Part shown: positions 2,731-45,700 of the stretch, piece after piece
Numbering within the stretch: the stretch's first letter is position 1
Layout: the number at the start of each line of letters is the position of its first letter
Origin: Membranipora membranacea
Taxonomy: Eukaryota > Bryozoa > Gymnolaemata > Cheilostomatida > Membraniporidae
NCBI GenBank assembly: GCA_914767715.1
Contig: OU612070.1
Coordinates: 2,187,501-2,251,500 of the forward strand
Direction of reading: 5' to 3'
Length of the DNA: 64,000 nt
Translations under genes and position numbers: made by a program
Notes under the pieces: generated by a model
Seen by the model: only the letters and a program-made list of their open reading frames with translations
Database searches by the model: none
What the model was told of the DNA's origin: nothing

Positions 2731-2769
2731 TTTTATCCAGGGAGTTACAGAGAAACTCCTTGTTTTATC
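2731..2769. repeat. Micro-palindromic insertion, family 1, 7-bp target duplication
   Basis: A 25-bp insert at 2738-2762 begins CAGGGAGTTACAGAG and ends AAACTCCTTG. It is flanked by exact direct repeats TTTTATC at 2731-2737 and 2763-2769. The insert ends are near inverted repeats of each other. The same start sequence recurs at 35495. Confidence 0.75.
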
Positions 2770-3038
2770 TAAGCTGATGTTTACCATTTTGATACCACAA
2801 AGGTATTATATTCAAATGATTACATCATAGCTACAACTATAAAATTAGCCTGATTATGACGCATTACCATTTTAGATCGAAATCTTGGTATTATTTTTTT
2901 AATTACCTGTTTGCGCAAGAATACGTTAAAATCAGATTCAAAGTGAAAGACCTTTTTCCTATAATATGTTATTACTCTAACTCTGGTCATCCACAGACCT
3001 AACTAACCTCTTCATAGACTATTTTGTGACTTTAATCA

Positions 3039-3071
3039 GTTAGAACAAGGAGTATTACTCCTTGGTTAGAA
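3039..3071. repeat. Micro-palindromic insertion, family 1, 7-bp target duplication
   Basis: The 19-bp insert CAAGGAGTATTACTCCTTG (3046-3064) is a perfect hairpin with a 3-base loop. Exact GTTAGAA copies flank it at 3039-3045 and 3065-3071. The right copy overlaps the AATAAA (3070-3075) of MMP 1. Confidence 0.8.
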
Positions 3072-4329
3072 TAAAGGTTATATTTACCATATCCTTGCTT
3101 ACTCAATTTTTATGGTTCCATCTTCAAAATTTATTGATTCCTAAACATATAATATATTATAAATATATAAAGGTCAGACATATGATGGGCTACTTTTACA
3201 CAGTCGGATTAGATTGTCTCCCTATAAAAACCTTCTACATATAATAAAAAAGATTATTCGTTGCTGGAATATAACAGATCACTCACTCAAATCAAGAAAC
3301 TCAAGACAGATAGTGGGTAATCTGTCTCACTTTCTATGGAAGTAGAGTTTTTGTTGGTAAAAAACTGTTAATTGTAAATGCAAAATATTTGATCCTAAGC
3401 ATATCTTTACGCAAGGACTTGCTAAGTTATTGCTCCTTATTTATTCTAAGATCAACAAAGAGAGTTTTTTTACTGTCTCTCATGTGACCACACAGAATAA
3501 TCAAGAGATTATCTCCTTGTGATACGAAAGACTCGTTGTCTCCTGATTATAACTGTTACATATTACGATAATTATCCTGATAAATAATACAAATTATTTC
3601 GCAAATCGATCATCAAAAGCTCTTGATGTAAGCTCTTGGTAATCACTGGCACACTCCCATAGCTGGCTGATACTATTTAGGAGTTAACTCTCTACTTAGA
3701 CAAAAACAACAATAGGTAATAATGGATAATCTTTACTTCGATAGTAACCTGAAGTCACATAGTACCAGTACCATGGACCCAGAACTGGTACACATCTACT
3801 TTCTTATTAGTCATGATATTACCTTCTACTTATTCTCAAGAGATTTAGTAAGATCTGAGCCGTTACGACATAGACAGAATAGCGTTAGCTGATTTGGATT
3901 AACTCCTGACACTTAGTTCCACATCATATATAAATATACCCAAAGCTCAATGATGAGGTTGCAAACCTCTGACAGTTTGAGTCGAGTTGACTGGTAACAT
4001 TTTTTTTGCTTTTATCCCAGCCGGTTTTCAGTTTCACATTTTTTTCGATACGATCATACAGGCTCTGATAATGGTCAGCAAGGAAGCTTCATAGTACCAT
4101 CTGGAATAATTTGATTTTGCTGCTCTCAGTCCCATACGTCTAACATCGCGTTGTTACGATATTTTTATATATATGGGAAAAGTGGGCTTCATAATTCAGT
4201 GTCATCACTTTAATACAGGGATTCTTAGTCTTGCCTTGTCTTACGAGGGGGACTGGGATAGAATGGAAGAAATCAGTCAGAATACAGGCTATATATGGCA
4301 CCCATCGTATTCAGAGGCCCCAGACTAAT

Positions 4330-5722: not shown

Positions 5723-8700
5723 ATGAAGTTAGTTCTTGTTCTGCTTGTGGGGAGCTTAGTGTCAGTATACTCTGCCAGTGAATCTTATGGTGAATTAGAT
5801 GATGTTGACAAATTTCTTCATTCAAACAATTTTACACAGGATGAGGTAAGACTTAACCTTTATTATTATATGGTTTGCTCTAACCAGTGAGTTTGGGACA
5901 TTCCAAACTTACTGCTCTTGCTGGGTGCAAAAATATGTTTTTCTCTAATTTAATATTACACTAAGTTTAATTACAGAATAAGTAAAATACTCCTTCTCTG
6001 TTATATGATAAATACATTCCTTCTGAGTTAGCCAGCATTACCAGCCAGAACATAAAGAGTAAATGTATTATTTTCTTACTCATTTGTGCAACTGTTGAAC
6101 AATCCAAACCACAATCGATTGATTTCGACTACAACCAGTCAAAACTGTGTACATATGCAGATCTGGTTATTCATGAGATTGTCATATCCCTCATTTGAAT
6201 GGAATATTTGTAATATTATTGTTTTTCTAAAGCTTTAGCACATCATAGTTTTAGGGTTTGAAACACCATGTGTGGCATATTTTATTTGCGTCATACAATT
6301 TGATAATCCTAAACATATAATCTTGTATTATAGTTGCCGTTTTCACACAGCTGTATGGAGAAGGAAAGTTATAATTTGATTGACCCTCGGTAGGGTTGTG
6401 TGGTTTCTTCTGTCTAGTTTGTCATTTTGATTTCTCTTTGCTTGTAGTGGATTACTCAATCTGCACAAGAGAGATTAGATACTATTGAGACACCTGCAGA
6501 GGGAATTAAAAGATTAAATGGCACACGTCAAGATGGTAAGACAAGTAATCTAACCAGGCCGATAACATTTTTTTTGACAGCTCATTTCTGAATCAATTCA
6601 CAACTTTCATCCCAACAAAGGAAAGGCTTATCTTAAGATTATGCTATTGACGCAGTCCTGGAGGCTAATTGATGAGAAATCTATTACAATATTATGCCGC
6701 TCAGGTGCCGTATAACTCTTTTCTCATGAGTCTCTCGCTAAAAAAAACTGCTGATCACGAAGAGGAAGGAGGTAATCCCCTCCTGCAGCTTAGTAATTCA
6801 GTAGCTTGATTTGAGCTGACAGCTGGAAATCTGTGGTTTATGACAATGCATAATCTAAATTTCTAAAAAAAAACATTCTGTGGCACGAGTATGAGAATAT
6901 GGATATAAGGAAGATTATGGTTGCACTTAGCGCAATCTTTAACTCAAACAGATAAAGTTATCGTATGGCAATAAATTATAACTTTGATAGTACACACTCA
7001 CTCACTCACTCACCACAGCAGTGCATAGTATAGATTACTGAGACTGAGAACGAATTATTTAATGTCAACACATGTATGTAAGGTGTAAACATAGACTTAA
7101 TATACTACTGTAGTATATTAAGTCTATGGGTGTAAATCAGCTAACAGATAGGAATAGTCTTCTCTTGAAACATGAAAACACAACTCTGATGCATAACTCA
7201 AATCAAAATTCTAAAATAGAGGTAACTTTTCAACAGTCAGAAGAAAACATTAATTACACTACAATGCATACACTTAGGTGGTATATCAAGTATATTAGTA
7301 GATAAAGTCGAATGGGAGTATGCTATGTCTATTAAATTTTGCACATTAACCCTAAGAAGAATATTTGTCATTTCAACAAAATTGACCAGCAATAAGAAAT
7401 GTAAAATTCCATGATCAAATCCCTGACAGCAAAATATTTCAAAATGGAGACCCAATATAGACAACAATATATGTACTTATCAGGTAAATGGTTTTGGAAA
7501 TGTGCAGTCAGTTTGAAAACATACTGTAGTACAAAACAAGCCATGAATATATTCAATAAACAGGGATAGGACCAAAAAACTCAGGACATCAAACATTTGT
7601 AGCACAAGGCAGGGCTTGAATCATTTGGCTACCTCTCTACATCTCAAAATGAATATTACTTATATACTGGAAGTATTGCGCATGACCTAAATATTTTTTG
7701 ATAATCTTTAGCTGGTTCACCAAAAGAAATCACGGAGATGAGTCAGGATCTGACGACGACATCAGAGCAAACATTGAGTAGAAAGAGAAGATATTCCTAT
7801 ATGGGTGATGGAAAGACTCTGTGGGTGGATATGCCAGTCACGTTTGGCTTCAAAAACTACCTACCAGACTCGAAAATGTCTAAAAAAGTGCAGGAAGACG
7901 TCGCGAGGGATTGTGCATCGGTAAGTAAACTTGAAGTAGAACTATCATTCATATGAAAATTTAAATGTCTGATGATAAAAACCACTAATATGAAAATCAA
8001 AGAATCTTTCGTTGCATAATTTTTCGTGCTTGTAAGTTGGTAACTTCTCAATTTCAGAAATGGGCTGCAGTGTCAGGGCTTTCGTTTGTGCTGGTCAGAG
8101 ATAAAATACCTAACATTAGAATAGAGTTTGTAAAGTTGGATGGTGCGCTTGGGACACAGAAAGCGGGTCAGGGAAATTTTATTGGAGAGGGGCAGATGCC
8201 CCAGCCATACAGCAATCCACCGTCATCCTTCCTACAGCTAGACGAGGAAGAGGACTGGACACCACGATGGTCTGTCAGATTCTCAGGTAGGTGTCGCTCA
8301 TCTGTGGTAGTTTTTTTCCCACCGGGTAGCTGATGATTGACTGACTAGGTTACCAGCTTATTATCTCAAATAAAGGTGTCAGTTGCGTCAATAAATTGCA
8401 TGAACTTTGCAAACTGGTTACTGATTCAATGTGTGTTTAGAAGTTTATGTAGATTTGTTGTAATTTTGAGAATTTTCTTTAATTACAGCGATAAGTTTAC
8501 AAGAGACAATGTGTCATGAGTTTGGGCATTGCCTTGGTCTAAATCACAGTACTATACGTCAGGCTGTCATGTTTGCTGATACTTCGGGGCGTACAAGCGA
8601 CACCCGTCTCTCCTCTGATGATATTGCAGGCATTCAAAGCCTCTATGGTAAACCGAGTCAGGTAGGGTCAGCTTTATTAGAATACTAATTTTGGTTCAAT

Positions 8701-9647: not shown

Positions 9648-12600
9648 TTACTGAGGTTGGCAGTCAAATATCTGTAATAGTTTAGGATACTTCTCTCTCA
9701 TATTAGGATAATCCTGCTGTCTAGTATCGAAGGTACTCATGAATTGTTCATGTTGAACAGAATCAAAATGGTTTCTCCAATCCCCTACTTTACCTACAAC
9801 CAACAACCACACGATATTACATTACCAAATAATATAATTAGGTATGTATGTATAGTTAATGTATATCTGAAGGACACAGTCCTTGAACAGCAATTACTGG
9901 TTAACTTCACACACACATACATACATAAGCTTTTTATTCTTCACAGGCAGAATCTCTATTTTGTTATGAGATTGTCCTGTTGTCTTGGGAAAAGGATTTA
10001 TCAACTATGTGGTACATATTTGACAAACTGGCGCTAATACTGCTATTTCACATCTGATATGATCATTGGGCTAGTTCACTTGAAAGAATGACCAAGCTTC
10101 GCTGATTTTCAATGAAAACGTGATGACAAGGATTCATCCCCGGTGACCCTACCTTCTCTGTACATTGAGTAGTCTTCTGAAACATAATGTCCTAATGCTT
10201 CAACTTCTTTTGCATGTTTGACATCTTTCATCTTACTGAAAGAGGTGCTTTCAGCTATTGCTGCTATTAATTCTTCATCCCGCTTTAGTCCTAGAAACTC
10301 TGAAAGTCTTGTGATTTCCTCTGTAGGGTTCTAAAATCAGTAATGTTTTCTTTTCGTCAAGCCCAAACCTTGTTATTCTATACACACAAAAGCATCTGAA
10401 GCTATTTTAGAGTAATTCACGTACAATCTTGTTGGCATTACTGCTGCCGGCACGGCATGAGCTAATCTATATGTTAGAATAATTTTATAACAACAATATT
10501 GTAAAGCCATCATCAGAGTTTTTTACCTCTCTGCTCTGAGTAGACAACCTGCAAATGCCATATATATATATATATATATACATATATATATTATACTGCT
10601 ACTTGTTTCACTAACCGCCTTCAGGTCTTCGTAGTATAGATTATAAAAGTTTTTATCTTGCTTGTGCTGAAGCGTCGTACCAGGTAGATTGGGGCACTAT
10701 AAAAACAGATTGATGGAAATCAGACTGTTCTGCTGGTAGTAAGATGAGATACACATAGATATAGAAGGAAGGTGTTGTCTAAGTTTTATGACGGTTTACA
10801 TCAAGGAGTAAAATTGCCACGTTGACATGATCCTGTTCTTTTCAATGCAGCTGGCTCAATTATCAGATTCAGAGGGAACCTGCTCACTCTTTTTGCTTTA
10901 CATATACATTTTTGCGCACTCGTTGATTAGCTGCTTCTAGAGACAACACATACAGACCAAAGCATTCATGCTAATTGTGTTGTACCAAGGAGTCAGACAC
11001 TCCTTGGTTGTACTGACTGCATAAACACAGCAGAGCTAGCTGCCTGACTATATAAAACTCCATGGACTGAGTGTTGTCTTCGTTTAAAATAGACTCACTG
11101 AGCTATTATTTGTGAACACATTGTTGATGTAGTAATTCCAGTCACAAGTCATGGCCAATCCTTTGACACTTCTCACACCATGGTGATAGAAGGAGACTGT
11201 AACGTCAGCTGGATTCCTATGTACTAAACTTTCCTCTGGATTAAAAAGTAATTATTTTATTAATTTTAATGAACATGACATGCATCGAAATATGTCTCAC
11301 GTAAGGTAGCGACACCGGGTCAGCAAATTATTGACTTTATATTGTTGGCAAGCTGCCAAGCTCCTGATGGTTAACAGCTCATTTTAGGCTATTTTAGCAA
11401 AAAGGATGGTTGAGCCAATTTGATTGCTAGAAATTTCAAAACAGGTAATATTTATTCTTAGAAATATAGTTCATCATAATTTTGGTTTAAAATAATATAC
11501 GATGAGACTAATGTGGCTTTTTACGTCACGTCATAATGCATATGATTTTTTTAATTCAATGAGATAATGCAAAATTTAAGCAACGATTAGAAACAGATTG
11601 AATAAGTGAGAGCTAAGACTTTTGCTAGTTTCCACTGAAGTGCTGTTATTATAATAATCAGATATATATATATAGATTTTATTTTTATTTATTTATTTCC
11701 CATCATGATGTGGTAATTTGATTGATAAAAAATGTCACAATGCACAATAGATATCCATAGAAAGTAGGTAACAGCTGATGTTACTACCATCAGCCCTTGA
11801 GCACTTCGCTAACCACCAGGAATTCTTAGTACAGACATCACATACACTGGTATACGTTACATGCACTTATGTCACATCTATGATATGTCCACACAGAGAT
11901 GAGTGTATAATTCTCGGTCTGCTGACTTCCTCCCTGTTTTGTGTGGTGGTATCTATACCCTCCTCCAGCATCTGCTCAATCTTGTTTTCTGTTCTGGCCT
12001 CTTCTGACCCTCGCGTCAGCATCATAAGTATCTAGAGAACTAGAGAACTCGATCAAGTTTGGTCCAATTTGCAAGCATTCAGACCGTTCCCATTCTAAGG
12101 ACTGCCTTTTCTGGCGGCTCGAAGGGGCAACTTAAAATGCAGGCAAATTGGATCATACTTGATCTAATAAGATACCAATGCGAATTAGGCATTACTTATT
12201 TATTATGTAAATTTATATTATTGTTTTTGTCATTAATTTTACCATTGATCATATGCCATCCGTTTCTTTTTAATCAGCATCTCATTTGCTTTAACCTGGA
12301 TTCAAAATATATGATGTGTGATGACCACTGATATGGAATAAGTGTTTATATACCTATATATAAATGATAATAATAATATAATAAATACAAATAATAACAT
12401 AAATATGTATATAATATAATGAATTTAAATATACCCCAGTGGTGCTATCATTTGGCACCTCACCTAAGTCATCAAACAAAATAAAAACAAAAAAATAATC
12501 ACAAGCTGAATGTCCCACTATATTAGCTACCACATGCAGGTACCATCACTCACCTGATTTAGGATAGGTTAGCAAGTAGAGGTCATCGTCAAAGACAGGA

Positions 12601-17846: not shown

Positions 17847-20800
17847 TCAAAGTTTAGGTCCATCAGTCGTTAGCTTGCTGTGCCGCTTCAGAAAGTCATT
17901 CATCAAATCACTAATGTCTTTCGGGTGCTGCATATGAAAATGATGGGTGCCGTCAAACTCTAATATCTCAAACTAAAAGTGAAAACAAACATATTGTAAA
18001 GAGTGTCTTGTGATAAACATACGATGAGAAAATACAGTTTAAGTGTGAAGCTCAAATACTTGAAAAATAGCCCTGGGCAGCTCTACCAATCTGCATGAGA
18101 TCAGATTGCCAAGGAATTGATCTATAAAGACACCTCTTTTGTCCATGAATTGACATATTAAATCTACATAGACTTGCTTGTTTTGATAGATTGCTGCTTA
18201 GCACATCAAATAATGGCATTTCTTTGCTAACTTAGATTATTCTAATGTAGATTGCTGCTCACAGAGTTATAGCTTGTTGCTGGTTACTCAGGTTGAGAGG
18301 GTAACTCTATATAATGTTTTATCAGACCACCTCCCAACACTGTGATCAATCAATTACATACACAAGTTAGCAATAGACCAATCGCCATTCAGTTAAAATC
18401 TGTTTGGTATCATCAGAATATGACTGGTGTACAAAGAATCTTCAGCTAATACAATGTAAAAGTGAAGCTGGATCAGTGTGGCCTCGCTGATATGTACCCA
18501 TCAACAAACATGTAAACCGTCTACATGCACACTGTGGCCATGGTGGAATGGAATGAACTTGAGAGTGTATGACTGCGAGTAGTGAATAGCACTCGCCTAT
18601 AAGCGCCATTACCCCTTATCGTTTTGGGAATAGTGAGGTGGCACTATAGGTAGGCACCCCTGATTGGGGCAGCAGGGGTCGTGGGATTGAATTAAATACT
18701 GGCTGAGCTTTCAAGATTGATTGGTCCAGCCCACTTTTGTCTATGGACTTCCAAGCTTCTAAAAGAAGATAGGGTAAAAACATGAAGCTCACATCATTAG
18801 GGTAGGACTTCTTTAGCGTCTCGAAAGCAGCCTTCCACTTAGACTCAGATGATGCGTCTGTAGTAGTTTCCCATGTATGTTGTTTAGCTCTACAAAACCG
18901 ACACAATAGAAATCTATGACTATAAGGTAACCAGTTTTGTTTCACAGCTCTATCATGAACACAACAAATGATAACCATCACTGTTTTATATTCTGTCATA
19001 GTAAGTCTTGCTTTAACCTATCTAAAGCTTATAAAGCTGTAATTCAAACCAGGCACTATGACTATCATGATGAGTTGCTCGTTTTCTACCTACGCCTGAG
19101 TTGTTCAGCAGAGGTGTAGTGGTGAGTTTATTGATATATAATATATTAATTATATATGATCAGACAGTCCCTGTTCCCAAATTTTTTTCTTTCTCAAATG
19201 TCGTTCTTTATCTTGAGAAACTTATTTTATACCATCAATCGAATCAAGCGCCTATAACCACTGAAATTGAGTACTACTGCTATGGAATTATACCTCAGTG
19301 CCTTTAACTCATAACCCATAAGGAGCCTATGTAGCCAAAGCTGAGCAGTGAAATGTAAGCCATACTGACCTGATGAAAAGTTGAGGTGTATCTTTGTTAT
19401 TCTGCATACATTTCATGTTCATTTCCATAGTTTGCTGGAGAACAGCATTAGTCTAAAACAAATGTAATTTGTCCTGAAAGATTTCACTGTGGAGTGTTGT
19501 TGGTTGGAGAAGATGTCATAACAGATGTTTTTGTTTTCTGGGTCTTCTCTTAATTAATCACATGTCTGTATTGCTTGAGGCATATGGTTAGCTTAGAATT
19601 TAGCCAGAATCAAAAATTCCATTAATAATCCAAGGGCCAAAAACATTTCTGTTATTCCTTATGGTAAAGTGCCTCATTATCAAAAAACACTGGATAGATT
19701 CGACCTCCCATGCATCATTTATACTAAAGATAATTGCTTACCCTGTTGTGTAAAGCTGGAGAATAAGTAAAGATGTATTTGCCATTTTCTGAAATAAAAA
19801 TCGTGAATGAACTGTTTTAATTACTTGGAAAACTCACAGCAAGAAGAAACCAGGCAGAAGAAGCTCAGAATATAATCTTCCCGGGAATGATTATACTGCT
19901 ATTTGGCATTGAGGAATGTTTTAACGGAATCATTCAAGACCCGGCATTACCAGGTATTGTAGGATCATAATTATTACGGTATATTGTACTGGCCACCCAT
20001 CACAATTATCTAGACGATGTTCTCATTTTCTTACAGGTCAATAATTCCAAAGTGGTTACAGGGCAATCATTAAAATTATAAATTTCTTACAATCTGATTA
20101 TTAAAAGGTTCAGACATATCTTTTCCATGCAACTTCACTTAAACTCACCTAATTTCTTACAGCCTCGTTTCATGAGTATTTCGAACTCCTCCTCTGTTAT
20201 GCCTGGAGCAGCCGCCCTCCATCTATCTGATAATTCCTGCCAGGTGTGCTCTCTGCCCTTCTTACCACTATAATCCTCCTCATACTTCATAAATTTGTCT
20301 ATCTGTCTGCCCCAGGCTGTGTAAGGATTACCATCCTAAAATATGAGCATAACTGGTAACGAATCCTTACGATTACAGCAATTGATATCCTTTTTTATTT
20401 GGTAGAGAGGAATGGATGGAGTGGCTGGAGTGTGTCGGGAATTTAAAGGGCTAAAACGGCAATATTTGAGATTTAGTTGCATTAAAATACACATAATAAT
20501 ATGGAGCCACAAAATCATTTGCATATGCAGAAGCTTGCACAGTATGATTATTATGTTGAGCTACAAATTAACTACTGCAATACATGTGAGCCCAGCATAT
20601 TGGTTTTTCATTCCCCAGAGCAATTTGATGGAAAATACCATCAGTTTTATATTCTTTCCTGTACATACTATGATGTATCATACAGCCAATAGATGATGAC
20701 AATCTGCACAAGCTATGGGGTATCTACACAAGCTATGGGGTATATACACAAGCTATGGGGTATCTACACAAGCTATGGGGTATCTACACAAGCTATGGGG

Positions 20801-29220: not shown

Positions 29221-29280
29221 GTCAAACCAAGGAGTAAAAAAACTCTTGGTCAAACCAAGTCTTTAACTCCTTGGTCAAAC
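29221..29280. repeat. Double micro-palindromic insertion with three target copies
   Basis: Three exact copies of GTCAAAC (29221-29227, 29249-29255, 29274-29280) separate two family 1 inserts. The first is 29228-29248, CAAGGAGT...ACTCTTG. The second is 29256-29273, CAAGTCTTTAACTCCTTG. Confidence 0.8.
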
Positions 29281-29362: not shown

Positions 29363-29397
29363 GATTAACCAAGGAGTATTTCACTAATTGGATTGAC
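29363..29397. repeat. Decayed micro-palindromic insertion, family 1
   Basis: A 21-bp insert (29370-29390) starts CAAGGAGT and ends ACTAATTG, two changes from ACTCCTTG. It is flanked by GATTAAC and GATTGAC (6 of 7). Confidence 0.55.
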
Positions 29398-29620
29398 CAC
29401 TATTATCCTTTGCAGCCAAGGGCATAGTTTCCCCTGTTACATCAAGGTTCATAGTAGCTAATACCCTTGGTTATTTGCTTGGTTGCAGCAAAGCTCCTTT
29501 TCATTTTCTGATTTTATGTAAAAAAAATGGAAAACCCAGTGGCTGTACTAACAATCAGCCTTGAATTGAGAAAGGTCAAAGTCCAAACATAGCCCGAAAG
29601 CAAGGATTTCAAGAGAAATC

Positions 29621-29741
29621 CCATTCTGCGCATGCTCAGCTCTGGGCATGCCCAGTCAGATCACGAGAGTCAGTATGGAGAAATCCTTGCCGAAAGTGTC
29701 ATACTGACTCTCGTGCCCAGAGCTAAGCATGCGCAGAATGC
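29621..29741. repeat. Hairpin repeat
   Basis: CATTCTGCGCATGCTCAGCTC with CACGAGAGTCAGTATG downstream pairs with CATACTGACTCTCGTG and GAGCTAAGCATGCGCAGAATG. The left arm has an extra 15-base insert. Likely a foldback element. Confidence 0.6.
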
Positions 29742-30476: not shown

Positions 30477-31548
30477 ATTTCTAATCATTATAAGCCCAGG
30501 GTTTTTTCACCTCAGTGGATATGCAACAGGGGATTTTCCTGTCCCACTCATTTGGTCAACTAAACTTCATGCTTGCACAAGGGATACGGATAAACTTAGC
30601 GCGCTCATCAATGCTGCTATAGGTGCAGATTCAAAACTGAATTCTGTAACTGCAGTAGTGAGAATTGCTGTAGCACTAGTTTGGATACAGGTTTTTACTA
30701 TGATTAGCACAACACTATACCTGACTGTGGCATTATGGAAATACAGGAGGGGGATTAAAGTAAAAGTTGGAGACAGTGAAGAAGCAAAGCCACCAAAATC
30801 TGAGCAGATATCAGCGGATGGTAGTAGAACGTCAGGTGACTCTACCAGTCTATTTCCAGACAATAAGGTCAGTTAACTTGACGGGTATTATAAAATATGT
30901 TATATGCTGAGTTTGACTAAGTTATGCTTTGCATAACTTGAACTTTGTGTTGATTAGTACATTTGATAGCTCATTTTAGTGTTATGAACTTTATTCCCTC
31001 GTTATTTTGCAGCCTGAAATGGCTATGTATTATACTTTGGTACTTAGCACTTTCGTTTGGCTGCCAATGATGGGTGCTGGGGTAGAAATAGGAGCAATTC
31101 AGGGGGAAAAGCCAAACAAAACGAATCGCAAGCGTGCCGTTTTTTCTCTCATTTTTAATCTCAGCTGTTAATGCCGTAATGCAAGCTGTAGTAAATCCTG
31201 AGCTCAAAAAAACCTATATAAAGGCATGGAGTTTCATATTTGGATCGGAAAATTTAAAAGTGGAAGCTGGCATTGATGCTACCAACACTGAGGGAAATCG
31301 GCCTTCTGCGCAGGAAGGTTCTGCTAAACCCAACCTAGGTCTGAATGCTACAACAAGTATCTTTGATAAAAAGAGACAAAATTTCAACCAGCTAATCCTG
31401 TTGATCAAACTAACAATGGAAAACAGGTCAGTTCAAGGATCAAAAATGGAGTAGACAAAAATGTTCAACAAAAAGTCGCTCAAAATTCATATCGGACAAT
31501 GAAGTTGAAGAGGTGACAAGGTTACTCAATAAGGTATTGTTGGATTAG
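30477..31548 (+). pseudogene. Broken partial copy of the GPCR gene
   Basis: Closely matches the intact GPCR at 33485-36498 but begins abruptly at 30477, opposite position 34000 in the intact copy, so TM1 to TM3 are absent. The first part (to 30867, donor GTCAGT) keeps the frame from SPGFFHLSGY through FPDNK. The second exon starts at 31013 and is frameshifted around 31100-31135, giving a stop shortly after FNLSC. The coding tail is shortened by an internal deletion but ends with the same LLD and TAG (31546-31548) and AATAAA at 31610. Intron and 3' flank are also duplicated. Non-functional as a receptor. Confidence 0.9.
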
Positions 31549-31829
31549 GTGCAGATTCTGCAGCCGGTGTGTAATACAGTCAGTTTCTAAGATTTAATTT
31601 TCATGTTTTAATAAATCATTGTGTAACAACCACTTCACACCGAATCATCTTTTCAGTGCCGCTGTGACTTGTTTTGGCTATTGTATCGATTTCACAAAAA
31701 AAAGAGCCAACTACTCAATGATAGCAATAGTCCATGGCTTGCATTGTTCTGTAGAGGGTAGATGATACATGTGATTGAGGTGCTTGTAACGTTCCAAAAG
31801 CTGTACTATGATGTGTTTCAATATCATTT

Positions 31830-31863
31830 ACGGACGGACGGATGGACAGGCGGACAGACAGAC
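31830..31863. repeat. Tetranucleotide microsatellite
   Basis: Imperfect GGAC/GACA units (ACGGACGGACGGATGGAC then CGGACAGACAGACAG). Confidence 0.75.
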
Positions 31864-32269
31864 AGCTCAGTTACTGATACATTATCTATTCAGCCATCAT
31901 TTTCATGGCATATAAGTAACTAGTTTCATTAATTTAGCATTTGCAAAGACTGCCCAGCACATGTAGGTTCCATTAGGTGCAGCCCGGGTAAAACGTGTTG
32001 GGTGGTTAGGTTTACCTGGTTGTGGATTGTTACTGCTGCTACACTAGGGTATCTCCATACTTTATATTATGTTTGTAAATAGAACTGATACGACCTCAAA
32101 AGTTTTGATACTTTTGATAGAACCTCAAAACTATCGTTTTTCGGTTGGATTATCACTTATTGTTTTACATAGTATTTACAAAAGCTGTCGATGTACTCTA
32201 GCTTGTCAATATGTCGTATCCATATCAAAATGGGCCGTCAGGCGGGGGCAAGAGTCTTGGGAGCTCAGC

Positions 32270-32410
32270 CTAAGCCGTCTGTGTAGCACCACCTCCTGTA
32301 CACTCACCTAACTTATTTGACCCCTCTGCGCAAATAGCAGGAAACATATTATTGTCGTAGAATATTACCAAATGGTATTTAAGTGTCCTCAGCAACAACA
32401 GTCTATTTTC
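32270..32410 (-). pseudogene. Isolated duplicate of the last profilin exon
   Basis: 141 bases, the same length as the real last exon (37257-37117), with an acceptor CAG and an open frame ENRLLLLRTLKYHLVIFYDN...KLGECTGGG to TAG. Only this exon was copied, since the duplication ends nearby, so it lacks a start and the first two exons. It could act as an alternative 3' exon only for a transcript starting far upstream on the minus strand, for example from the profilin promoter. Confidence 0.8.
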
Positions 32411-33361
32411 CTGTAAAGCAAATAGATGAAAAGTATTTATCATGGTTGAGACAAAACTTTGTTACATGAAAAGAAATTTACATCACACCTGTTTGACTAA
32501 TACTATGAATATTGGTAGTTCACCTCAAGCTGACTGGAATGGGACAACTTAGAATCTTTCCCCTGTACTACAACTCAGTGATAATAAAGCAAGATGGTGT
32601 TGACTGTTGATGCATGGGTAGCTTATCTTGACAAGCCTTGGTTGTGTGTTTGTTTCCTCCCCTCCCTCCCCTCCCCCACCCAATCAAGAAGGGAGCGACA
32701 TTATAATTGTTGCCCAGTGTAAGGCATAGACACAGACAGGTTTTGTCTGTAGAACTCCTTTTTTAAAAATCATTTATGATAACCACGCAACTAGTGATGT
32801 CTCCGTCTTGTGCGATTTGTCTCCTCGAGATACTGTCTCGTCTCGTCGAGACAGACACTCTCGATACAGGTCGAGAGTTGTTCATTATAAACATTGTAAT
32901 GATGATTACCCAATGGGCCATATGTACAGTCAACACCTAACTATACTGTATTATGATGTATTATCGTGACCACTGATCTTCCAAAATGAGAAGAGTATAC
33001 TGAAAAGGCCCCCAATGTTTGTTCAGAAGCCTAGACTGATGTAATATCAAAATTGATAAAATCATTTCTGTATCATATTCAATTCCTAGATGCCAATAAA
33101 GTGGCAGTTTTCAATTTTATCGGCATCAATATATTTCTCGGTCTTGTCCTCGTCTCAAATGTTGTTGCTGTCTTAGTTTCATCTTGTCTCGCCAAAATCT
33201 GACAGTTTGCAATCACTACATGCAACCATAGCCGTGGCCTCAAAGCAATGTATTGGTTACCCAATGAGCGGAAGTTCAACCATCTCTGCAAAATTCAAAA
33301 AACTTTGGGTGGAAAAGCCCATAGCTAATTTCTGTCGTAACTTTAGGGATGCGAAATACAT

Positions 33362-33495: not shown

Positions 33496-36400
33496 CAATG
33501 TCTTACACATCTTTGGACAATATTATACATGCAGTTTGAGTGTGACCATGAACATTAGTTCAGTCGGCCAACACAACACTACTGTGCATGATGGTTATTT
33601 CTATATTATCGATGAGACGCAACTGGCAAGCGGAGTTAATTCTTTATTGCTGCTGATATTAGGCATCAACATTTTAATTGGCGTGCCGATGAACTGTATA
33701 TCGATGATGATTCTATGTTGTGAGAGGCGTTTGACAGCGCTGAGGAATATATACATCGGGTATACTGCATTCATAGACTTCGCTATCTGTGGAGTATACA
33801 GTATAATTTCTATGGTTGCATTAGTTCAGGGTAAAATATCCAAACTAGTCTGTGAAGTTGCAGCAGGCGTTCAAACTGTCCATCTTCAAACGAAGCTCAT
33901 GACTGTCGCGTTCATTGGTATACTTCAAGTGATCCGACTACAGTACAACAAACACTCGGAGTACTCAGGCATTTTCAGTAGATCGTTTACAATAACTGCA
34001 TTTCTAATCATTATAAGCCCAGGGTTTCTCCACCTCGGAGGATATGCAACAGGGGATTTTCCTGTCCCATTGATTTGGTCATCTAAACTTCATGCTTGCA
34101 CAAGGGATACGGATAAACTTAGCGCGCTCATCAATGCTGCTATAGGTGCAGATTCAAAACTGAATTCTGTAACTGCAGTAGTGAGAATTGCTGTAGCACT
34201 AGTTTGGATACAGGTTTTTACTATGATTAGCACAACACTATACCTGACTGTGGCATTATGGAAATACAGGAGGGGGATTAAAGTAAAAGTTGGAGACAGT
34301 GAAGAAGCAAAGCCACCAAAATCTGAGCAGATATCAGCGGATGGTAGTAGAACGTCAGGTGACTCGACTGGTCTCTTTCCAGACAATAAGGTCAGTTACC
34401 TTCTTAAACATATACTTGTATAATGTGATATGCTACATAATATTATGTATATTTTATGTATACTGTTGTTAACGTGATATATCGCCTTTTCAGTTTCTCA
34501 GGAATTACTTGTCCCATCTAAAAAAATTACTTCACTGACACGTTGCTAGTAGTCTGACTTATATTTCATACCGCAAATTTTTTTAAACCGCACGCTTCTA
34601 ATTTGATTAATTTTACATTAACTAATAAAATACATTGAAAACATATAGGCAGCAATGGGCAAAATGATGCAGTAAATTACTTTATGCAAAAGCGTGATGA
34701 GAATCTATGCAGTATTACATGCAAAGCACATTGTGTACAACAATGGATCATCTTTTTTGGGTGATTGTTTAGCATCGAAAGAGAAATGTTTATGCTCATA
34801 ACTTCTCTACTATTGAATTTACATCTAACGCCACAATCAAAACCTCGAAAATACTCTCTAGTTTAATGGAAGCTGGTGTGTATAACATGTTGTTTAACCT
34901 ATTTTCGGTTTTTTGGCTGGAGAGGAGTGCATGTTTTGGACCAAATAAAGCTAGTATAGCCAAAAAAAATCCAAATATCTCAAGATGTAAAGCCATAATC
35001 ATAAATCGCTTCGATCAAAATCTAGACAATCTCCTGCTGTTCATCATGCTAACAACAAATTTGGTTTACATCTTTCTGAATTTCTGAATTTTGGCTGGGA
35101 AATTTTGACCTAAATTAGTGAAAATTTGAGTTATCATCTGATTCAGTTGTGACAACCAGGATGTGTGAGCTGGTAAGATTATTGTTGGAAGCGACAGTAC
35201 AAGACCAAAATGGTATAATAAATTGGAAATTTTAGTTTGTGCGTTAATGGGGTCGCATGTAATGAGGGGTCAGAAATGGCCCTATTACTATTGCAAAAAT
35301 CAATTTCAAGTCTCGACGACAGGAGGCCCAAAAACATCATGTTTCACTAAAATGTCACTCCTCCAGTTAGTGCCATGCTTCCTCTATATGGTGAAAGCAT
35401 AAACTAATCAAATACCTCAAAAACAAGGCACAGAGGGCTCAATTTAAAAAGGCCACCTTTTGCCCCAAAATGAACTTCCAGAGGTCACTGTGACCAGGGA
35501 GTTACAGAGTTTTCAAACTCCTTGCTGTGACTCAACGTCAAATATTTGGGAGGTTTTAATTGTGAAAATAACTATAACATAATATGATCACCAATACAAT
35601 ATTTATAAGTTTAAAAAGCGATATATCACGTTAACTCGCACTGCAGGTTTTAAGCCCCAGCAAATCATGCAGGTAAAGACCTGACAACAACTTGTATTGG
35701 ACAGGTGGCACGGCAGAGATGAAAGATTTTGGACAAAATTACCATTGAGTGTGACTTAGTTATGCCTAATAACGCTAATAAAACATAAGTTGAACTTGTG
35801 TTGTTTGTTCGCTTAGCACAGTTGATAGCTCATTTTGTTTTGAACTTCATTCCCTTGTTATTTTGCAGCCAGAGATGGATATGTATTATACTTTGGTACT
35901 AAGCACGTTTGTTTGGTTGCCGTTGAGTGGTGCTGGGTTTGCAATTGGAGTATTTGAGGAAGAAAACCAAAGCAAACGTATCGCAAGCGTGCCATTTTAT
36001 CTCTCATTTTTAATCTCAGCTGTTAATGCCGTAGTTCAGGCTGTCGTCAATCCTGAGTTCAAAAAAACTTATATAAAAGCATTAAGCTTCATATTTGGAT
36101 CGAAACTTTGTAATTCAAAAGTGGAAGCTGTTGTTGAGGCTACCAACACTGTGCCAAATCGGCCTTCTGAGCAGGAAGCCAACCTAATAGCTTTGAGTGT
36201 AGAAGCTACTAGGAGCTATTTAAATCATGTGAAATCAAAATCAGCAAAAAGGAGACATAGCCGCTCTATCGGATCTTACATGACAGGTCTGAATGGTACA
36301 ACAAGTATATTTGATAAAAAGGAGATAAAATTCCAAACAGCTCATCCTGTTGATACAACTGACACAGGGAAACAGGTCAGGTCAAGGAACAAAAATGGAC

Positions 36401-36498
36401 TAGACACAAATTTTCAACAAAAAGGTCGCTCAAAGTTCATTTCAGAAAATGAAGTTGAAGAGGTGAAAAGGTTACTCAATCAGGCATTGTTGGATTAG
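33485..36498 (+). CDS. Rhodopsin-like (class A) G protein-coupled receptor
   Basis: Seven-pass receptor in two exons: 33485 (or 33548) to 34390, and 35869-36498. Starting at the second in-frame ATG (33548, MNISSV) gives 490 residues with N-glycosylation sites NIS and NTT before TM1 (LLLLILGINILIGVP). TM2 and TM3 follow, with the conserved Cys in LVCEVAAG. At the TM3 end the DRY position reads QVIRLQY, unlike typical DRY. Loop 2 has a Cys (LHACTRD); TM5 is VVRIAVALVWIQVF. TM6 and TM7 come from exon 2, where NPEFKKTY replaces NPxxY. The long Ser/Lys-rich tail lacks recognised domains. AATAAA at 36560. Ligand unknown; the subfamily is not assigned. A 67-bp tandem duplication overlaps the 5' end, and a truncated copy lies upstream. 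Confidence 0.8.
35488..35531. repeat. Micro-palindromic insertion, family 1, 7-bp target duplication
   Basis: A 30-bp insert (35495-35524) starts CAGGGAGTTACAGAG and ends AAACTCCTTG, the same ends as the 2738 copy but 5 bases longer in the middle. Exact CTGTGAC lies at 35488-35494 and 35525-35531. Located in the GPCR intron, and apparently not matched in the duplicated copy's shorter intron. Confidence 0.8.
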
Positions 36499-37116
36499 GT
36501 TCAGATTCTGCAGACTGGTTGTAATACAGTCAGCCTCTTAGATTTAATTTTCATGTACTAATAAAAAACTTCTGTAACCACCGCTTCACACCAAATCATC
36601 TCTTCAGTGCCTTTGTGACTTGTTTTGGCTTTTATATCGATTGTGTTGTTATGTAGAGGGTGATAATACATGTGATTGAGGCAGGCCTAGTGTTCCAAAA
36701 GCTGTCCCATGGTGGGATTCAATAACCTTTGTGTATCAAATAATCAGCTGAAATTTATAAAACATAATATTCAGTGGTAGAAATACAGGCAGATAGACAT
36801 ACATTTACTGATCCACTATCTGTTCAGCCATCATATTCTAAGCATTCATCTAACACCTGTGTTTCTAATGATTAACTTAGCAATGGCAACACTGCCCCAC
36901 TACTAAGTGTCAAATTATACTGGTGCTATGTGTGGTAGTTGTGTTACGTGCAGTCAGGGTAAAAGGTGTTTGCTTGGTTGTGGATCGTTTCTAGCGCTCC
37001 ACTAGGGTGTCACCATAAACATATGAATACTCTTTCTGTTCTGTGCACTTGCTGTTTTATATAGTTGATCTACACAATATTTCTCTGTATAAACTGGGCC
37101 GTTGGACAGGGTGAGA
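36499..37116. other. Tail-to-tail gap between GPCR and profilin-like gene
   Basis: Holds the GPCR 3' UTR with AATAAA at 36560 and sequence shared with the 3' flank of the broken copy (for example the CACTAGGGT(A/G)TC stretch near 37000 and 32045). No further gene seen. Confidence 0.6.
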
Positions 37117-38658
37117 CTAGGCCCTTGGTGTAGCACCACCTCCTGTATACTCACCTAATTTATTTGATGCCTCTGCGCAAATAGCAGGAAACATATTATT
37201 GTCGTAGAATACTACCAAATGGTATTTAAGTGTCCTCAGCAACAACAGTCCTCCTTCCTGTAAAGCAAATAGATGAAAAGTATTTAAATCTGATAAATTA
37301 TGAAGAGCTATCACGTCTGTGATCGCCCTCTCTCTATGTCACAAAGATTCAGCTCATTCTGTTCATAATGAGTAGGATATCCAGATTGTTCATATATAGT
37401 TCATGGTTAAACTCATGAGCTCTGTTTGACCAATCTAATAAACCATTCTAGTTGACCCACAGTAGGTATATTTTGTAATATAGAGGGAATATAAAAAAAA
37501 AGCGTGTAACCATCCTTTTTAAGGTATGGAGTTATCTTCTCATTTTGTCTGAGCAGATAAGTTCCAAATTGGCAAGTTTGCTAGTGAAAATTTGTGGCAT
37601 TTATTTATCAAACATGATTTTTGCCATATTGAAGACATGATCAACTTATCATCATTCCAGGCTCCAGCAGAATTACTGATATTGAAACATGATCTAATAA
37701 AGAATTTAATGATATACGTCATATATAAAATGTGTACTGTATTGTTGACAAAAGAAGTCAAATATTTCACCCGCAAAACACAGTAGATAATCTCAGTAAC
37801 TGAACGTCATGCAAGTTTTAAAAGATGGTTTGGATGTAGTGAAATGAGCGCTAGACCACTGCAGTGTACATACCTCAGTCTTAGCATACACTGCATCACA
37901 GTCACGTCTCGATACACTGTAACTATTTGAATTAAAAGTGAATCCTTTACTTCTTAGGTTTGGCTTAGTGAATAGCATACCAAGTTTTATGACACCAGCA
38001 TCTGGAATCTAAAAACAAAGGATATCTCCAACCCAATTCATCATGAGCAAGCAATGTAGAAAAGTCATCACTAATTATTTAGAAGGTACCATTTGGTTTA
38101 ATGGACTGTGGGCCAATGCTATATCCAAAAGTCCTACTGATCTCTTATTTTAATGCAAATGATCTTTTCTCAACACATAGTCATAAATTGTTCCTGGATC
38201 AGTCAGATTTCCATCCCATTATATGAACTGATGCTGTCTGAATTTTGGCACTTTTTATTCATAAACTAAATTTTAATCATTTGTACATTCAAGTCTGGTC
38301 GTTGTGTGTCTTTCAACCAAGACCAGTTTTTCTTACGATTAATAAAAACCCGGCTGAATATCGTGAGATCCGTAACTTTCTAGGAGCAAAGTGGTGGGGT
38401 TAACACAACAAATAGATTTCACACATGTTTTTATGTAAAAATAATGTATGTCAAGTTGTGAAAACTGCATCGTAATAGAGTTCTTACCTCAAAACCAGGG
38501 TTTGCTGATATGTAAGAGAAATCCTTCAGGTCGATGAGTACGGCATCCTTGACATTTCCGCAGCTGAGCAGATTGTCAACCAGCAGGGCGTGTTGCATAG
38601 CCTCAGAGAACCCTCTCTGTGGAATAGCAGGAAGAGGACGGCGCAGCACACTAGACAT
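37117..38658 (-). CDS. Profilin-4-like protein
   Basis: 148 residues from three phase 0 exons: 38658-38488 (ATG), 38008-37874, 37257-37117 (TAG). The sequence reads DNLLSCGNVKDAVLIDLKDF, SANPGFE, then a middle exon with GFTFNSNSYSVSRRD and DAVYAKTE, then LLLLRTLKYHLVVFYDNNMF, ICAEASNKLGEY. The fold pattern (VDxLL...AAL, sPGF, YxxxR, vvvkT..yllvaTY, YPsiC.Ea...LGdYL) fits the profilin family and most resembles profilin-4. That divergent class binds phospholipid, with weak actin interaction reported for mammals. The last exon contains GGTGAG, which looks like a donor but is coding (KLGEY). The last exon was duplicated to 32270-32410. Confidence 0.82.
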
Positions 38659-38790: not shown

Positions 38791-38816
38791 ATGGGAGTTT
38801 CTACTCCTTGAGTTAT
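38791..38816. repeat. Possible family 1 micro-palindrome without clear target repeat
   Basis: CAAGGATATGGGAGT and ACTCCTTG ends form a hairpin like the other family 1 inserts. The flanking 7-mers do not match, so it may have been inserted then rearranged, or may be chance. Confidence 0.35.
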
Positions 38817-39205: not shown

Positions 39206-39295
39206 CTACTTCACATGTACTGGTCCTGTCTCAATGGTTTGCCTCGCAGCTGAAGTAGACTTCCGGTCTAGTTTTCCAGCAAGGGTGAACAGCTC
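39206..39295 (-). CDS. Candidate orphan terminal exon
   Basis: After an acceptor-like TATATCACAG, an exact 30-codon frame reads ELFTLAGKLDRKSTS and AARQTIETGPVHVK to TAG. The codon content looks coding, but no upstream exon or family was recognised. Low confidence. Confidence 0.25.
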   Translation of the reverse strand, partial: ELFTLAGKLDRKSTSAARQTIETGPVHVK

Positions 39296-41209: not shown

Positions 41210-41350
41210 CACATCCCGGAGCATAGGCGGCGAAATTCGTTGCCTTAGTGGCCAGGCCACAATATCTGCGCCAGGTTGCTCTCTGTTTGCAGGCAGGTCG
41301 GAGCACACCTGGGTGCCAACCAAAGCCCAGTAGACGATGGACCGCAGATA
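41210..41350 (-). repeat. Diverged SINE copy
   Basis: Shares CATCCCG, GCGCCA(A/G)(T/G)TTGCTCTC and GGCAGGTCGGAGCACACCTG with the SINE at 44795-45015 in the same order. The tRNA-like end is decayed. Confidence 0.65.
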
Positions 41351-41740
41351 CATTTGATATGAGGCCCTTTCGATAAATTTAAGGTTCAATGATTGCACAG
41401 ACCAAGGGTACATTGCGGCAGCATCATTCAAGGATTGTCAAGATAGTTAATCCTATTGTAAAAACTGCCACAATACTGCCTTCCTAGCTCTACCCACCTT
41501 ATCAATTTAGCTAGAATAGTTAGGTGTAATTTAAGCATGAAACATCAAGTCTAATTGTGGAGTAAGGCTGTACAAAAAGAATTTTTTATGGGAGAGCCTG
41601 CATATTCTATTTTTTACTGTGATCAAAAACTTTGAATTCAGTTCATTCTCCAGAACCCTATAATTGTGACAAATACATGAAAGGAGTTTTTGGCATCAAG
41701 CTTCACATAACTTTCCCCTTGACACAAAGCTTGCAGGTAC

Positions 41741-41774
41741 CTTGACCAAGGAGTAAAAAAACTCTGTCTTTGAC
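41741..41774. repeat. Decayed micro-palindromic insertion, family 1
   Basis: A 21-bp insert (41747-41767) starts CAAGGAGTAAAAAAACTC, matching the first insert at 29228. The flanks CTTGAC and CTTTGAC differ by one base. Confidence 0.55.
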
Positions 41775-42781
41775 TATTGTTAAACAATTTATTCTGTACC
41801 CCTTACTCTGTGAAGCAGTCGAGCCACATGCTTGAAACTAAAATTTTTAGACAGATAGATAGATGGGGTGATAACTCTATTCTGCAAATGAGCCACCAAA
41901 ATTCAACAACAAGAGAAGACAACTTCGTAGCCTAAGATTTGCCAAAATTGACTTTAATGAACTGAGTCTGTGATAGTGTGGTGGCTTCTTATTAAGTGTA
42001 ATGACAAACATTGCGGTGTTGCATCATAATCATCTCTGTAATACGAGATATAGAGTCAGTCACCTGAGCAGTTAATATTTTACAGCCATCGATCAGTCCT
42101 TTACGAGTCAACATAGAAGCAAAACATATCAGCAAGCTGCACTGTTTGTATTTAGTATCATGGTTATCTGTGGAGACAATTGAAGATAAGCTTTGTCTAA
42201 CAAGCGTGGGTGGAAGAGCATATAACTGCACGGCTGTACAGAGTACTACTTACTTACATCAATTCCACCAGACCGTTATTCAGGTATGCATGTGTCTCTC
42301 ACTACAGAGTAAACATCTCATGGTACCATGAAACAATAAGCTCACTATTTTTTACTGCCGGGAAGTTGGATAATTTTGTCACCGCTGTTTTCTCACCAAG
42401 CCATTGCATAATCCCACAGCCCCCGATCACCATAGTCACATACATAATAGCATAGTCACTCTGCCATTACTTCACTTTCACCGGCGGGATAGTTGTCTGT
42501 AAGCCGTTTTGTCATTATACTCAAAATAACACATTTTCTCACTGGATGGTGAAAAGCATACCAGGAAGGGAGGGAGGAAGTGACAAAATGACAGTTGGTA
42601 AATAGACCACATATGATTGCCTTATCTCAAAGCAGTGGGTTACTTTAGAGCATATCACATGAAACTTACAATCATGCGCTCAACTGGTTTAAATATTATG
42701 AACTGATAGATTTGGACTTTTTTTACTTGTTTTGAAATATAAATTCCATTTATAATTTATGAAGGCGATAGTGACACACAG

Positions 42782-45700
42782 ATGGATCGTCTACAGGAGA
42801 TGATGGTTGAGTTCTGCGACCAGCTGAACCTCAAAGATCCAGATGAAAAGTTCTATGAAGAGCTCACACCATTGTTAGGTCAGCTTTCTTTTGATGATAT
42901 AAAAAGCACTCTCCAGAAAAAGAATTTTTTTGGCTGGAAACCTCTTAATTGGGCAGCAAAACAAGGCCATTCCCGTGTCATCACGGCTTTCCTCACAGCG
43001 GTGCCAATGGAGAGGAGGCTGCGGCTACTGCAGACAAATAAATACACCCCATTACATCAAGCGTGTCGACAAGTTAATGTGATCAAAACCATTCTGTCTC
43101 ATTTATCCACTGAGCAGAAGGCCACACTGATCTGTTCACAGAGTAGAGATAGCTGTACGCCTCTACATGAGACTGTGAACTGGGGTAAAACAGATATAGC
43201 TAAAATACTGCTAGACAGTTTAACACCAAAGCAGCAGCTTCAGCTTCTCGCTGTCAAAGATAAAGATGATAAGACAGCAGTTCAGATCGCTGACTCTAAA
43301 GACGATATGGATATGGAGGAACTACTCATTGATTATCAGGAGCAAGCTCAACAATCCATAGACAAAGCGAGACTTAGTCTAGGTATGTTATACATTTTAA
43401 TGTCTGACAACGTCCCCCCCCCCCCATCATTTGCCCTAATTTCTGTGCTACGTTTACGGAACACATCATACCTGCCAAATAAAGAGTGTATAATCATGAA
43501 AATAATATTTCGGTTTCATTACGCTAGAAAGATACTAATATTACTGGCATGGCTTGACGTGTAGGGTACTGCCTGATGTCGGATATGATTTTGTAAAGCA
43601 GAAGAGCAGGAAGTGTTTGCTTTATAATCGTGTTTCCTCGTTATAGAAAAAGATTGTCTCAGATTTTCTCATTTTATGTAATTATGCCTTCTTAGCTGCA
43701 TTTATAGAAGCTGAAAATAAACATTGGGAACAAAACCCAGTCTTCAGTGATAGTCAGCTCTGTGACCTGGTAGATTGCCATCTCGTATTTATCCTGGTTT
43801 TATTAATCTAGCTCCAGACTAAGACTTTTCTGCCTTACTACTACTATCCTTTTTGTTCATTTTTAACAGCGGTATCTGATGAGATCAAAGAAAGAAAAGA
43901 AGACAACTCAAAACGGAATATTTCTGACAATCTAGCAAATACTTTCAAGAACTTGGAGCTTCCCAATTTTGCAGGTAAATCTCTCGGCTCATCAGTGAGG
44001 ACATTGCATGGTATTTAAACACCAAATCACAGCAAAGCAACATGAAATGGCTGGCTTCCATCCACTTCTCACAGCTTGAAATGGCAAGACTTTTCCCATA
44101 TGTCCCAACGGTGATCAGGGTTGGGCGCTGTGCTTGTGATGGCAGGAGGTTTTGATCACTCAACAGACAGATTCTATACAATATTTTGGCTGATCGGTTT
44201 CATTAAAAGTTTGAGATATCCGAAATTTAAGCAGATTATGAAAGTTCTAGTTTGCTAACGATCCTTCATCATTACATGTATGACTGGACACTGAACGTCT
44301 TGCTCCGCACTCATTCTGTGCCCAAATAAATAAAAAATATACTATATATTTCATCTCTTTATGAAAATGCAATCAATGAATCACTGTAGTGGAGAACCTA
44401 TACCTCTAACCCATGGGACTCCGCCATGCATTACCAAGGGATATATTGAGCAATACATATACATAGGTATTATCACCTTACTAGAGGTATGATATTTTCT
44501 CTGCAGTAAATACGTTTTCATTTTTAATTTAATACTTTATTACTTAATTTAATACAGGTAATTTTGGGAAAATGATACCATTCTCTGGTAAGCAGCTCTC
44601 TGAGGATATAAAGGCTAAGGTGGACAGGTGCCGAATACCGAGTGAGAGATTGTCTATTGGTCAACAGCTCGGCAAGGGGAATTTTGGAGTTGTCTACAAA
44701 GGCAAATTTATAGCTCCATCCGGAAATATCAAAACAGTAGCAGTCAAAAGCATCAGAGGTAAAATAATGTTGGTTAAAATCTCAAGGTTTCATCACTCAC
44801 CGCATCCCGTAGAAAGGGCTTTGCCGCAATGTCAGCGCCAATTTGCTCTCAGTTTGTAGGCAGGTCGGAGCACACCTGGGGGTCCAACAATCCCCAATAG
44901 TGAGTGGACTGCAGTGGGATTTGGACCCACAACCTTCAACACTTGCGCGCTGAAGGCCGGCGCTCTAACCAAGGAGTTAACTCCTTGCTCTAACCTGAGC
45001 CACCTTCTACTCCTGCATTTATTATTAACTTGCTGTTTTTGTGATTTTACCATGTTAAATATCGTATAGCGTTATCCATTTCATCATTTCATCATCAATT
45101 GTAATAATTGTTCTAGTTTTGTGGCTGCGTTGAAACTTATTATTTTATTTTAATTTATACAGATGACAGGGAGATGAGTTTTGAGGATTTGTAGAATTTC
45201 CTAACAGAGGGAACTCTGATGATTGACTTCAAACATGAGAACGTTCTCTCCCTGATCGGTGTGGTCTATGAAAAGGCCGATCTACCTCTGGTAGTTTTAC
45301 CTTTCATGGAGAACGGAGATTTATGTACATTCGTGAAAAAAGAAGATTTGGTCAGTATGAATAATAAAATATCTAGAGTCTTCAAATGTTTGTTTTGAAA
45401 AACCCCAGGTATTGTGCTACTGCTGTTCACTAATTTTATCTGATTCATGTTGTCCAAGGAGAAAATCCTGTGCCAACGCTTTTAGAAATATCCTGTCAGT
45501 TGACTGAAGACAAGCCCCTGGTAAAAAACCAAACCTTATTTAGGGAAGTTTGGAGTTGTCCACAACCACAACTATGCCTCCTATATTACATGTACTTATA
45601 ATATAATCTCTTCTAAGTTTTCTCGATCTCATTAAAGACCTTACTCTTGCATCTTATATAATGTGAACAAAACTTCTATGATTAGTTACATTCCCATAAA

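Follow-up and report, generated by a model that had tools for sequence, protein, structure and literature searches.

The P transposase is reported to cut 17 bp inside the terminal repeat, and after P excision the chromosome ends bear the target site duplication (TSD) together with a 17-nt tail of element sequence (PMC2895639). In footprints recovered from Rad51-lacking male flies, the joined stubs are still flanked by the 8-bp duplicates (Chan et al. 2010, PMC2895639, Table 1). The commonest product with short microhomology (14/66 isolates) is a 30-bp palindrome of the structure 14 nt-(AT)-14 nt; other products have lost one tail or gained a filler, and 18/66 hold only 5-8 nt between the repeats. 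A tally of 63/66 isolates published in this table gives spacers of about 5-44 bp with a median of about 30. Here we analysed a 64-kb stretch of DNA from Membranipora membranacea (contig OU612070.1, positions 2,187,501 to 2,251,500; referred to as the window), which contains a family of micro-palindromic inserts between 7-bp direct repeats. We consider these inserts to be probably (probability about 0.62) end-joining excision footprints of a P-superfamily cut-and-paste transposon with a target habit closest to 1360 and Galileo.

For 1360, a member of the P superfamily, a 7-bp TSD and the palindromic target motif GTTNAAC are reported, and for the P element an 8-bp TSD and the motif GTCCGGAC (PMC3276498). 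Galileo, which also belongs to the P superfamily, has a 7-bp TSD, and its motif is given as GTAGTAC, GTANTAC or GTATTAC depending on the sample (PMC2775673, PMC4168063). For the sites of P and 1360 a tendency to ANAGT...ACTNT has been reported. The motif described for the hAT element hobo (GTNCGNAC, 8 bp) is likewise of the GT...AC type. Published terminal inverted repeats (TIRs) of the P superfamily measure about 13-31 bp. According to a paper on P-derived miniature inverted-repeat transposable elements (MITEs) of Anopheles, movement of P in Drosophila melanogaster requires end sequences of no less than 138 and 216 bp, and about 100 bp per end is suggested for Anopheles (PMC1562414).

Micro-palindromic inserts and their flanking repeats

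A preliminary description, made from the letters alone, had reported coordinates, family ends and 7-bp repeats for the clean sites as well as two decayed copies (29370 and 41747). The letters in the window match the sequence given there at 9/9 coordinates, the repeats are exact (7/7) at all six close-paired sites, and both decayed copies are present, each with a 6/7 repeat. A 6/7 repeat alone is weak, being matched or bettered at 15% of random positions (27 spacers, minisatellite included), and the assignment of 41747 leans mainly on its first 19 nt, which are those of 29228. The inserts are listed below with their positions in the window.

2738-2762, unstranded: candidate footprint, CAGGGAGTTACAGAG joined to AAACTCCTTG, 25 bp; TSD TTTTATC at 2731-2737 and 2763-2769, 7/7
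3046-3064 (3039-3071 with TSDs), unstranded: candidate footprint CAAGGAGTATTACTCCTTG, 19 bp; TSD GTTAGAA, 7/7
10795-10828, plus strand: possible one-armed footprint (insert 10802-10821); flanks TTTACAT and TTGACAT, 6/7, weak
10986-11006 (10979-11013 with TSDs), unstranded: candidate footprint CAAGGAGTCAGACACTCCTTG, 21 bp; TSD GTTGTAC, 7/7
29221-29280, unstranded: candidate double footprint, GTCAAAC, insert 29228-29248 (21 bp), GTCAAAC, insert 29256-29273 (18 bp), GTCAAAC; three exact 7-mers
29370-29390 (29363-29397 with TSDs), unstranded: decayed candidate footprint, 21 bp; TSD GATTAAC and GATTGAC, 6/7
29594-29696, unstranded: related 24-bp candidate footprint CAAGGATTTCAAGAGAAATCCTTG, made up of 29601-29621 and 29687-29689; outer TSD CCGAAAG, 7/7
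35495-35524 (35488-35531 with TSDs), unstranded: candidate footprint CAGGGAGTTACAGAGTTTTCAAACTCCTTG, 30 bp; TSD CTGTGAC, 7/7
41747-41767 (41740-41774 with TSDs), unstranded: decayed candidate footprint with a poor right end; TSD CCTTGAC and CTTTGAC, 6/7
44970-44987 (44963-44994 with TSDs), unstranded: candidate footprint CAAGGAGTTAACTCCTTG, 18 bp, perfect palindrome; TSD CTCTAAC, 7/7
50194-50215, minus strand: one-armed candidate footprint, ATGTAT, GTACTCCTTG, ATGTAT
CARGGAGTTAMAGAG and CAAGGAGTTTGAAAA: not inserts of their own but examples of ends that a putative full element might carry

Twelve inserts span 10-30 bp with a median of 21, counting one-armed cases of 10 and 20 bp (the latter weak) and the 24-bp case minus its nested insert. 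The density of the family is about one insert per 6 kb, with about ten in 64 kb. The 24-bp relative carries the ends CAAGGATTTC and GAAATCCTTG and is split by a 56-bp element (29622-29677) with its own 9-bp duplicate GAGAAATCC (9/9), so that the 24-bp insert must predate the 56-bp element. At the double, two unlike stubs are framed by three copies of GTCAAAC. This arrangement would result equally from insertion and excision happening twice at one favoured site, from a tandem insertion, or from a templated repair insertion copying the right stub and the duplicate.

The association of ends and repeats was quantified by pairing 48 left ends (at most one mismatch to CAAGGAGT or CAGGGAGT) with 47 right ends and scoring adjacent 7-mers that agree at 6/7 or better. 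All five pairs at 16-35 bp were duplicated, each at 7/7, and so was the single pair at 36-60 bp, which is the tandem double (46 bp, 7/7). Duplications were found for only 1/11 pairs at 61-200 bp, a nested case, for 0/78 at 201-2000 bp and for 0/428 at 2001-20,000 bp, hence 0/506 from 201 bp to 20 kb. When flanks lying 10-55 bp further out were compared, the means were 0, 0, 0, 0 and 1.0 across the five size classes.

Exact copies of the 8-mer CAAGGAGT and its complement number 15 in the window, whereas 60 letter permutations yielded a median of 1 and never more than 6. Twelve of these 15 occurrences lie within inserts having repeats of at least 6/7; the remaining ones are 10802 and 50202, both one-armed with 6/7 repeats, and 38803. 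A combined score of ends and repeat gave nine rows at 20-23 (two of them being the double read two ways), and no row reached 20 with 40 permuted ends, the minisatellite being excluded from these controls. The score of 18 obtained at 16501, where the repeat is 7/7, is within chance (28 control rows of 18-19 with the 40 permuted ends).

As a further control the pattern CAAGGAGT-N0..24-ACTCCTTG was sought in viral contigs, where it occurs at least 120 times; none of the matches listed had a flanking match of 6/7 or 7/7. Among the 120 listed, 13 matched at 0/7 positions, 24 at 1, 36 at 2, 36 at 3, 10 at 4 and one at 5. Exact patterns of the longer end, of the CATAGACTTAAT family, of the 18-mer CAAGGAGTTAACTCCTTG and of the GCGCATGC element gave 0 matches each in viral contigs, and the longer end gave 0 matches in prokaryote genome contigs, both being collections from which records of the source genome may be excluded.

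An empty paralogous site

The end at 50202 borders a segment that is duplicated in the window (50210-50398 and 56319-56507, 91% identical). In the alignment, the first copy has 16 extra bases, ATGTAT plus GTACTCCTTG, before ATGTAT, and the second copy has one ATGTAT only.

56313-56330, unstranded: paralogous empty site for the insertion at 50194; single ATGTAT at 56319-56324

The second copy is an empty site for a family member with one arm. It lends support to insertion but is no proof when taken alone, being a single paralogous site in mildly repetitive surroundings and having a 6-bp repeat instead of one of 7 bp. Paralogous empty sites were also sought for the inserts at 35495 and 51649, whose flanks were not alignable.

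Two tandem segmental duplications in the window (49177-54790 / 55131-60664 and 30477-32439 / 34000-37286) are 72-97% identical by block and are usable as internal empty-site controls. The first carries MFS-like open reading frames (ORFs) under the Pfam cut-off, the second an ORF resembling a membrane protein by eye.

There is good support for insertion by a transposase that makes staggered cuts, namely the TSD test, the palindromic target motif described below and one empty paralogous site. The inference in the preliminary description of a transposase-type insertion with a 7-bp staggered duplication is to this extent supported. Its proposed comparison with random palindromes came out in the same sense (5/5 here, 0/120 among the listed viral-contig palindromes), and its concern that empty sites might already hold two copies of the 7-mer was answered for one site, in a paralog, where a single repeat was found and insertion was not refuted.

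Target site preference

Symmetrised flanks of nine sites, namely the six exact ones and three with related or decayed ends, yield the consensus A-GTTNAAC-T. The counts are 10/18 for A at position -1, then 11/18 for G, 14/18 and 10/18 for the two T, and 16/18 for A or T in the centre. None of 20,000 random sets of 7-mers from the window reached the GTTNAAC score, whether all nine sites or only the six exact ones were used. GTNNNAC ranked first among 16 palindromic dinucleotide motifs (z 6.5), followed by CTNNNAG (4.0). The Galileo motif GTANTAC fits the sites less well (p 0.0005 vs 0/20,000 for GTTNAAC), the comparison with published motifs having been made after the data were seen.

TSD length and motif, considered jointly, point towards a 1360-like transposase of the P superfamily. 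The duplications, 7/7 at all six close-paired sites, lie in the 7-8 bp range of the superfamily, and the palindromic GT...AC preference is that of the superfamily as well, a feature shared with hobo. As to the inverted repeats, most ends share only 8-11 nt, and the stubs are too short to reveal a longer repeat. The hAT superfamily was rejected, since it needs an 8-bp TSD and the inserts have 7 bp.

Origin of the inserts

If the inserts are excision footprints, an element would first have inserted with a 7-bp stagger at sites resembling A-GTTNAAC-T, duplicating 7 bp, a step for which the TSDs, the motif and one empty site speak. Transposase would then have excised the element, cutting one strand about 17 nt inside the end as in P biochemistry, so that each broken chromosome end would retain the 7-bp duplicate and a short 3′ tail of the element terminus. 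End joining of these tails with trimming, small fillers or microhomology would produce a short near-palindrome with a variable centre, and loss of one tail a one-armed scar, alike in kind to fly P footprints. With the element gone, the scars would build up and decay.

A footprint origin predicts an upper size limit, variable centres, one-armed copies and intact duplicates. In the inserts both TSDs are kept, and the spacer between them does not exceed the length of two 17-nt tails with filler, the assignment of bases to tails being ambiguous; the only longer TSD-bearing pairs in the window are the double and the nested case. The inserts at 2738 and 35495 have 15 nt of the left end and 10 nt of the right end in common and differ by 5 central nt. 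An interpretation of 35495 as a pair of 17-nt tails with 4 nt annealed was abandoned, because any 30-mer would fit it. Among the three movers offered in the preliminary description, remnants of excision are favoured, as P-type footprints; extreme internal deletion is disfavoured by the size limit and because P ends this short would not be expected to move, and a distinct insertion process is not needed.

Several observations weigh against footprints of a P-type element. Most ends agree over the first 8 nt only, and beyond this agreement is seen only in groups: 29256 and 44970 share 11 nt, 29228 and 41747 share 19, and 10802 shares 12 with the latter two. Several subfamilies or fillers must be assumed, because one parent with a 13-31-bp repeat predicts better agreement at positions 9-17. 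The 19-nt match of 29228 and 41747 could be explained more simply by copying of a whole micro-element. Furthermore, the exact end at 38803 has no duplication. Compared with fly products, whose median is near 30 bp, the inserts in the window are short (median 21), and scars as short as the 5-8 nt held by 18/66 fly products were not sought in the window. Many excisions in the germline would be required to leave about ten scars in 64 kb without a single element. No parent element was found within the 64-kb window, and no P or THAP domain in the 18 distinct ORFs scanned of its 92 ORFs of at least 75 aa. Other micro-insert families in the window (39-56 bp, 8-9-bp TSD) include members longer than two P tails. 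The GT...AC motif alone is not unique to the P superfamily, since the hAT element hobo is described with one, and A at -1 fits the ANAGT tendency but position -3 is T (8/18) over A (5/18).

It is possible, though we regard it as unlikely, that the 18-30-bp palindromes are ultra-short MITEs, themselves mobilised in trans by a P-like transposase with a 7-bp TSD. Such elements would have common ends and TSDs, and the interiors shared within the pairs 2738/35495 and 29228/41747, the tandem double with its three TSDs and the other 28-56-bp families with exact 8-9-bp TSDs in the window agree with this. However, synapsis of the ends of an 18-bp palindrome by two transposase protomers is hard to picture. 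An 18-bp palindrome is also a poor candidate for a mobile unit because P ends of at least 138 and 216 bp are needed in D. melanogaster and about 100 bp is suggested in Anopheles, where the P parts of P-MITEs are described as somewhat below 100 bp each. Moreover, the centres are unlike in most copies, and the copy at 50194 is without one end.

Internal deletion of longer MITEs or transposons after insertion, e.g. by slippage at hairpins, is a still more doubtful explanation. Hairpin-rich DNA is known to be prone to deletion, and both TSDs and both ends would be kept, as is the case here. Random loss, however, predicts a spread of lengths, and apart from the double and the nested case nothing was found from 31 bp up to 20 kb, a gap that holds for ends with at most one mismatch and TSDs of at least 6/7, so that longer copies with more decayed ends would be missed.

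We consider it very improbable that a whole transposon family underwent near-complete, possibly programmed excision, by which the sequenced, perhaps somatic, genome would keep the joined stubs and the germline would still carry the elements. The outcome would be akin to that of another excision system, the removal of internal eliminated sequences in ciliates, but with P-type chemistry and in an animal. Chance palindromes or unrelated short duplications can practically be dismissed. In favour of such an origin, the window as a whole shows only a modest excess of short-range direct repeats (210 of length 7 vs 141-208, and 22 of length 9 vs 8-19, in six Markov sequences). Neither the 5/5 duplicated pairs, compared with 0/120 listed viral-contig palindromes at 6/7 or better, nor the 15 end occurrences, compared with a permuted median of 1, fit it, however.

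Other inserts and repeats in the window

Micro-inserts of three other families, with duplications of 8 or 9 bp, also occur in the window. The 56-bp element at 29622-29677 and a 41-bp relative at 29700-29740 have the form CATTCTGCGCATGC..GAGTCAGTATG and are inverted copies about 20 bp apart, the 41-bp copy having an exact 9-bp duplication CGAAAGTGT. A second micro-palindrome family, CATAGACTTAAT..ATTAAGTCTATG, is represented at 7090-7128 (39 bp) and 48982-49009 (28 bp) by perfect palindromes with unlike centres and exact 8-bp duplications (GGTGTAAA and GGGTATGC). The 41-bp inserts at 61931-61971 and 51649-51689 have TAGCCTGGGCAGGC in common; the former shows an exact 9-bp duplication GGGGTGGTT, the latter one of 6 bp only, TGTCAG.

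The insert at 44970 interrupts the presumed A box of a tRNA-like repeat head (44823-45030), part of which is 79% identical to 41256-41347; assignment to short interspersed elements was by eye only. The second repeat copy (41256-41347) stops short of the insertion point. With ARAGORN at default settings, removal of the 44970 insert and one repeat restored no tRNA, and lowered thresholds gave poor calls for all three versions.

The 64-kb window has a GC content of 38% and, judged by its genes, resembles intron-containing animal DNA. Matches above the Pfam cut-offs comprise a matrixin fragment, a tyrosine kinase exon, ankyrin repeats and a PAN domain; further kinase and MFS matches lie under them. 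A 5.4-kb minisatellite (20702-26064) consists of 268 copies of a 20-bp unit with 95% matches and has long ORFs in each forward frame, with an interruption in one of the three. Between kinase-like ORFs lies a 580-bp near-perfect palindrome (47385-47964) with 290-nt arms that are 98% complementary and no spacer.

Comparison with known systems

The mechanism, if right, is already known from laboratory flies. Among the literature matches listed, all of them open-licence, there was neither a genome-wide survey of P-type footprints or such inserts nor a natural genome with about ten scars of one family per 64 kb and no element. If the footprint reading is true, a genome keeps a countable record of transposon departures and not of arrivals alone, and this one may be densely marked by past jumps of an element that does not appear in the window. 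Through the TSD and the repair junction in each scar, an assembly could be read for its excision load, for how breaks tend to be joined and for which elements have vanished. Scars of 18-30 bp may be expected to escape repeat annotation.

The Dada superfamily resembles the inserts in its TSD of 6-7 bp; its elements are described with no terminal inverted repeats and with fixed targets in small-RNA genes (PMC3706591). Dada was rejected, since the inserts have inverted 8-bp ends and varied target sites. Anopheles P-MITEs are likewise non-autonomous P-type sequences with TSDs, but the names of the reference copies carry sizes of 205-675, the TSD is 8 bp, and the TIRs of related P elements measure 27-31 bp (PMC1562414). 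Galileo shares the 7-bp TSD and the GT...AC motif and differs in its long, internally repetitive TIRs and in GTANTAC, which fits the window less well (PMC2775673, PMC4168063).

The 7-bp TSD and the palindromic GTTNAAC motif are those reported for 1360 (PMC3276498). The flank preference at -3 differs, and the likeness to 1360 is one of TSD and motif. 1360 itself is a longer element than the inserts in the window. The inserts differ from the fly P footprints in their 7-bp TSD, their CAAGGAGT ends and their shorter median, and they are natural and dispersed with the parent unseen, whereas the fly footprints as published have an 8-bp TSD and CATGATG ends and were induced from one known element in Rad51-lacking laboratory males. 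With these footprints (PMC2895639) they share TSDs retained around two joined end stubs, many near-palindromic products, a variable centre and products that are asymmetric or contain filler.

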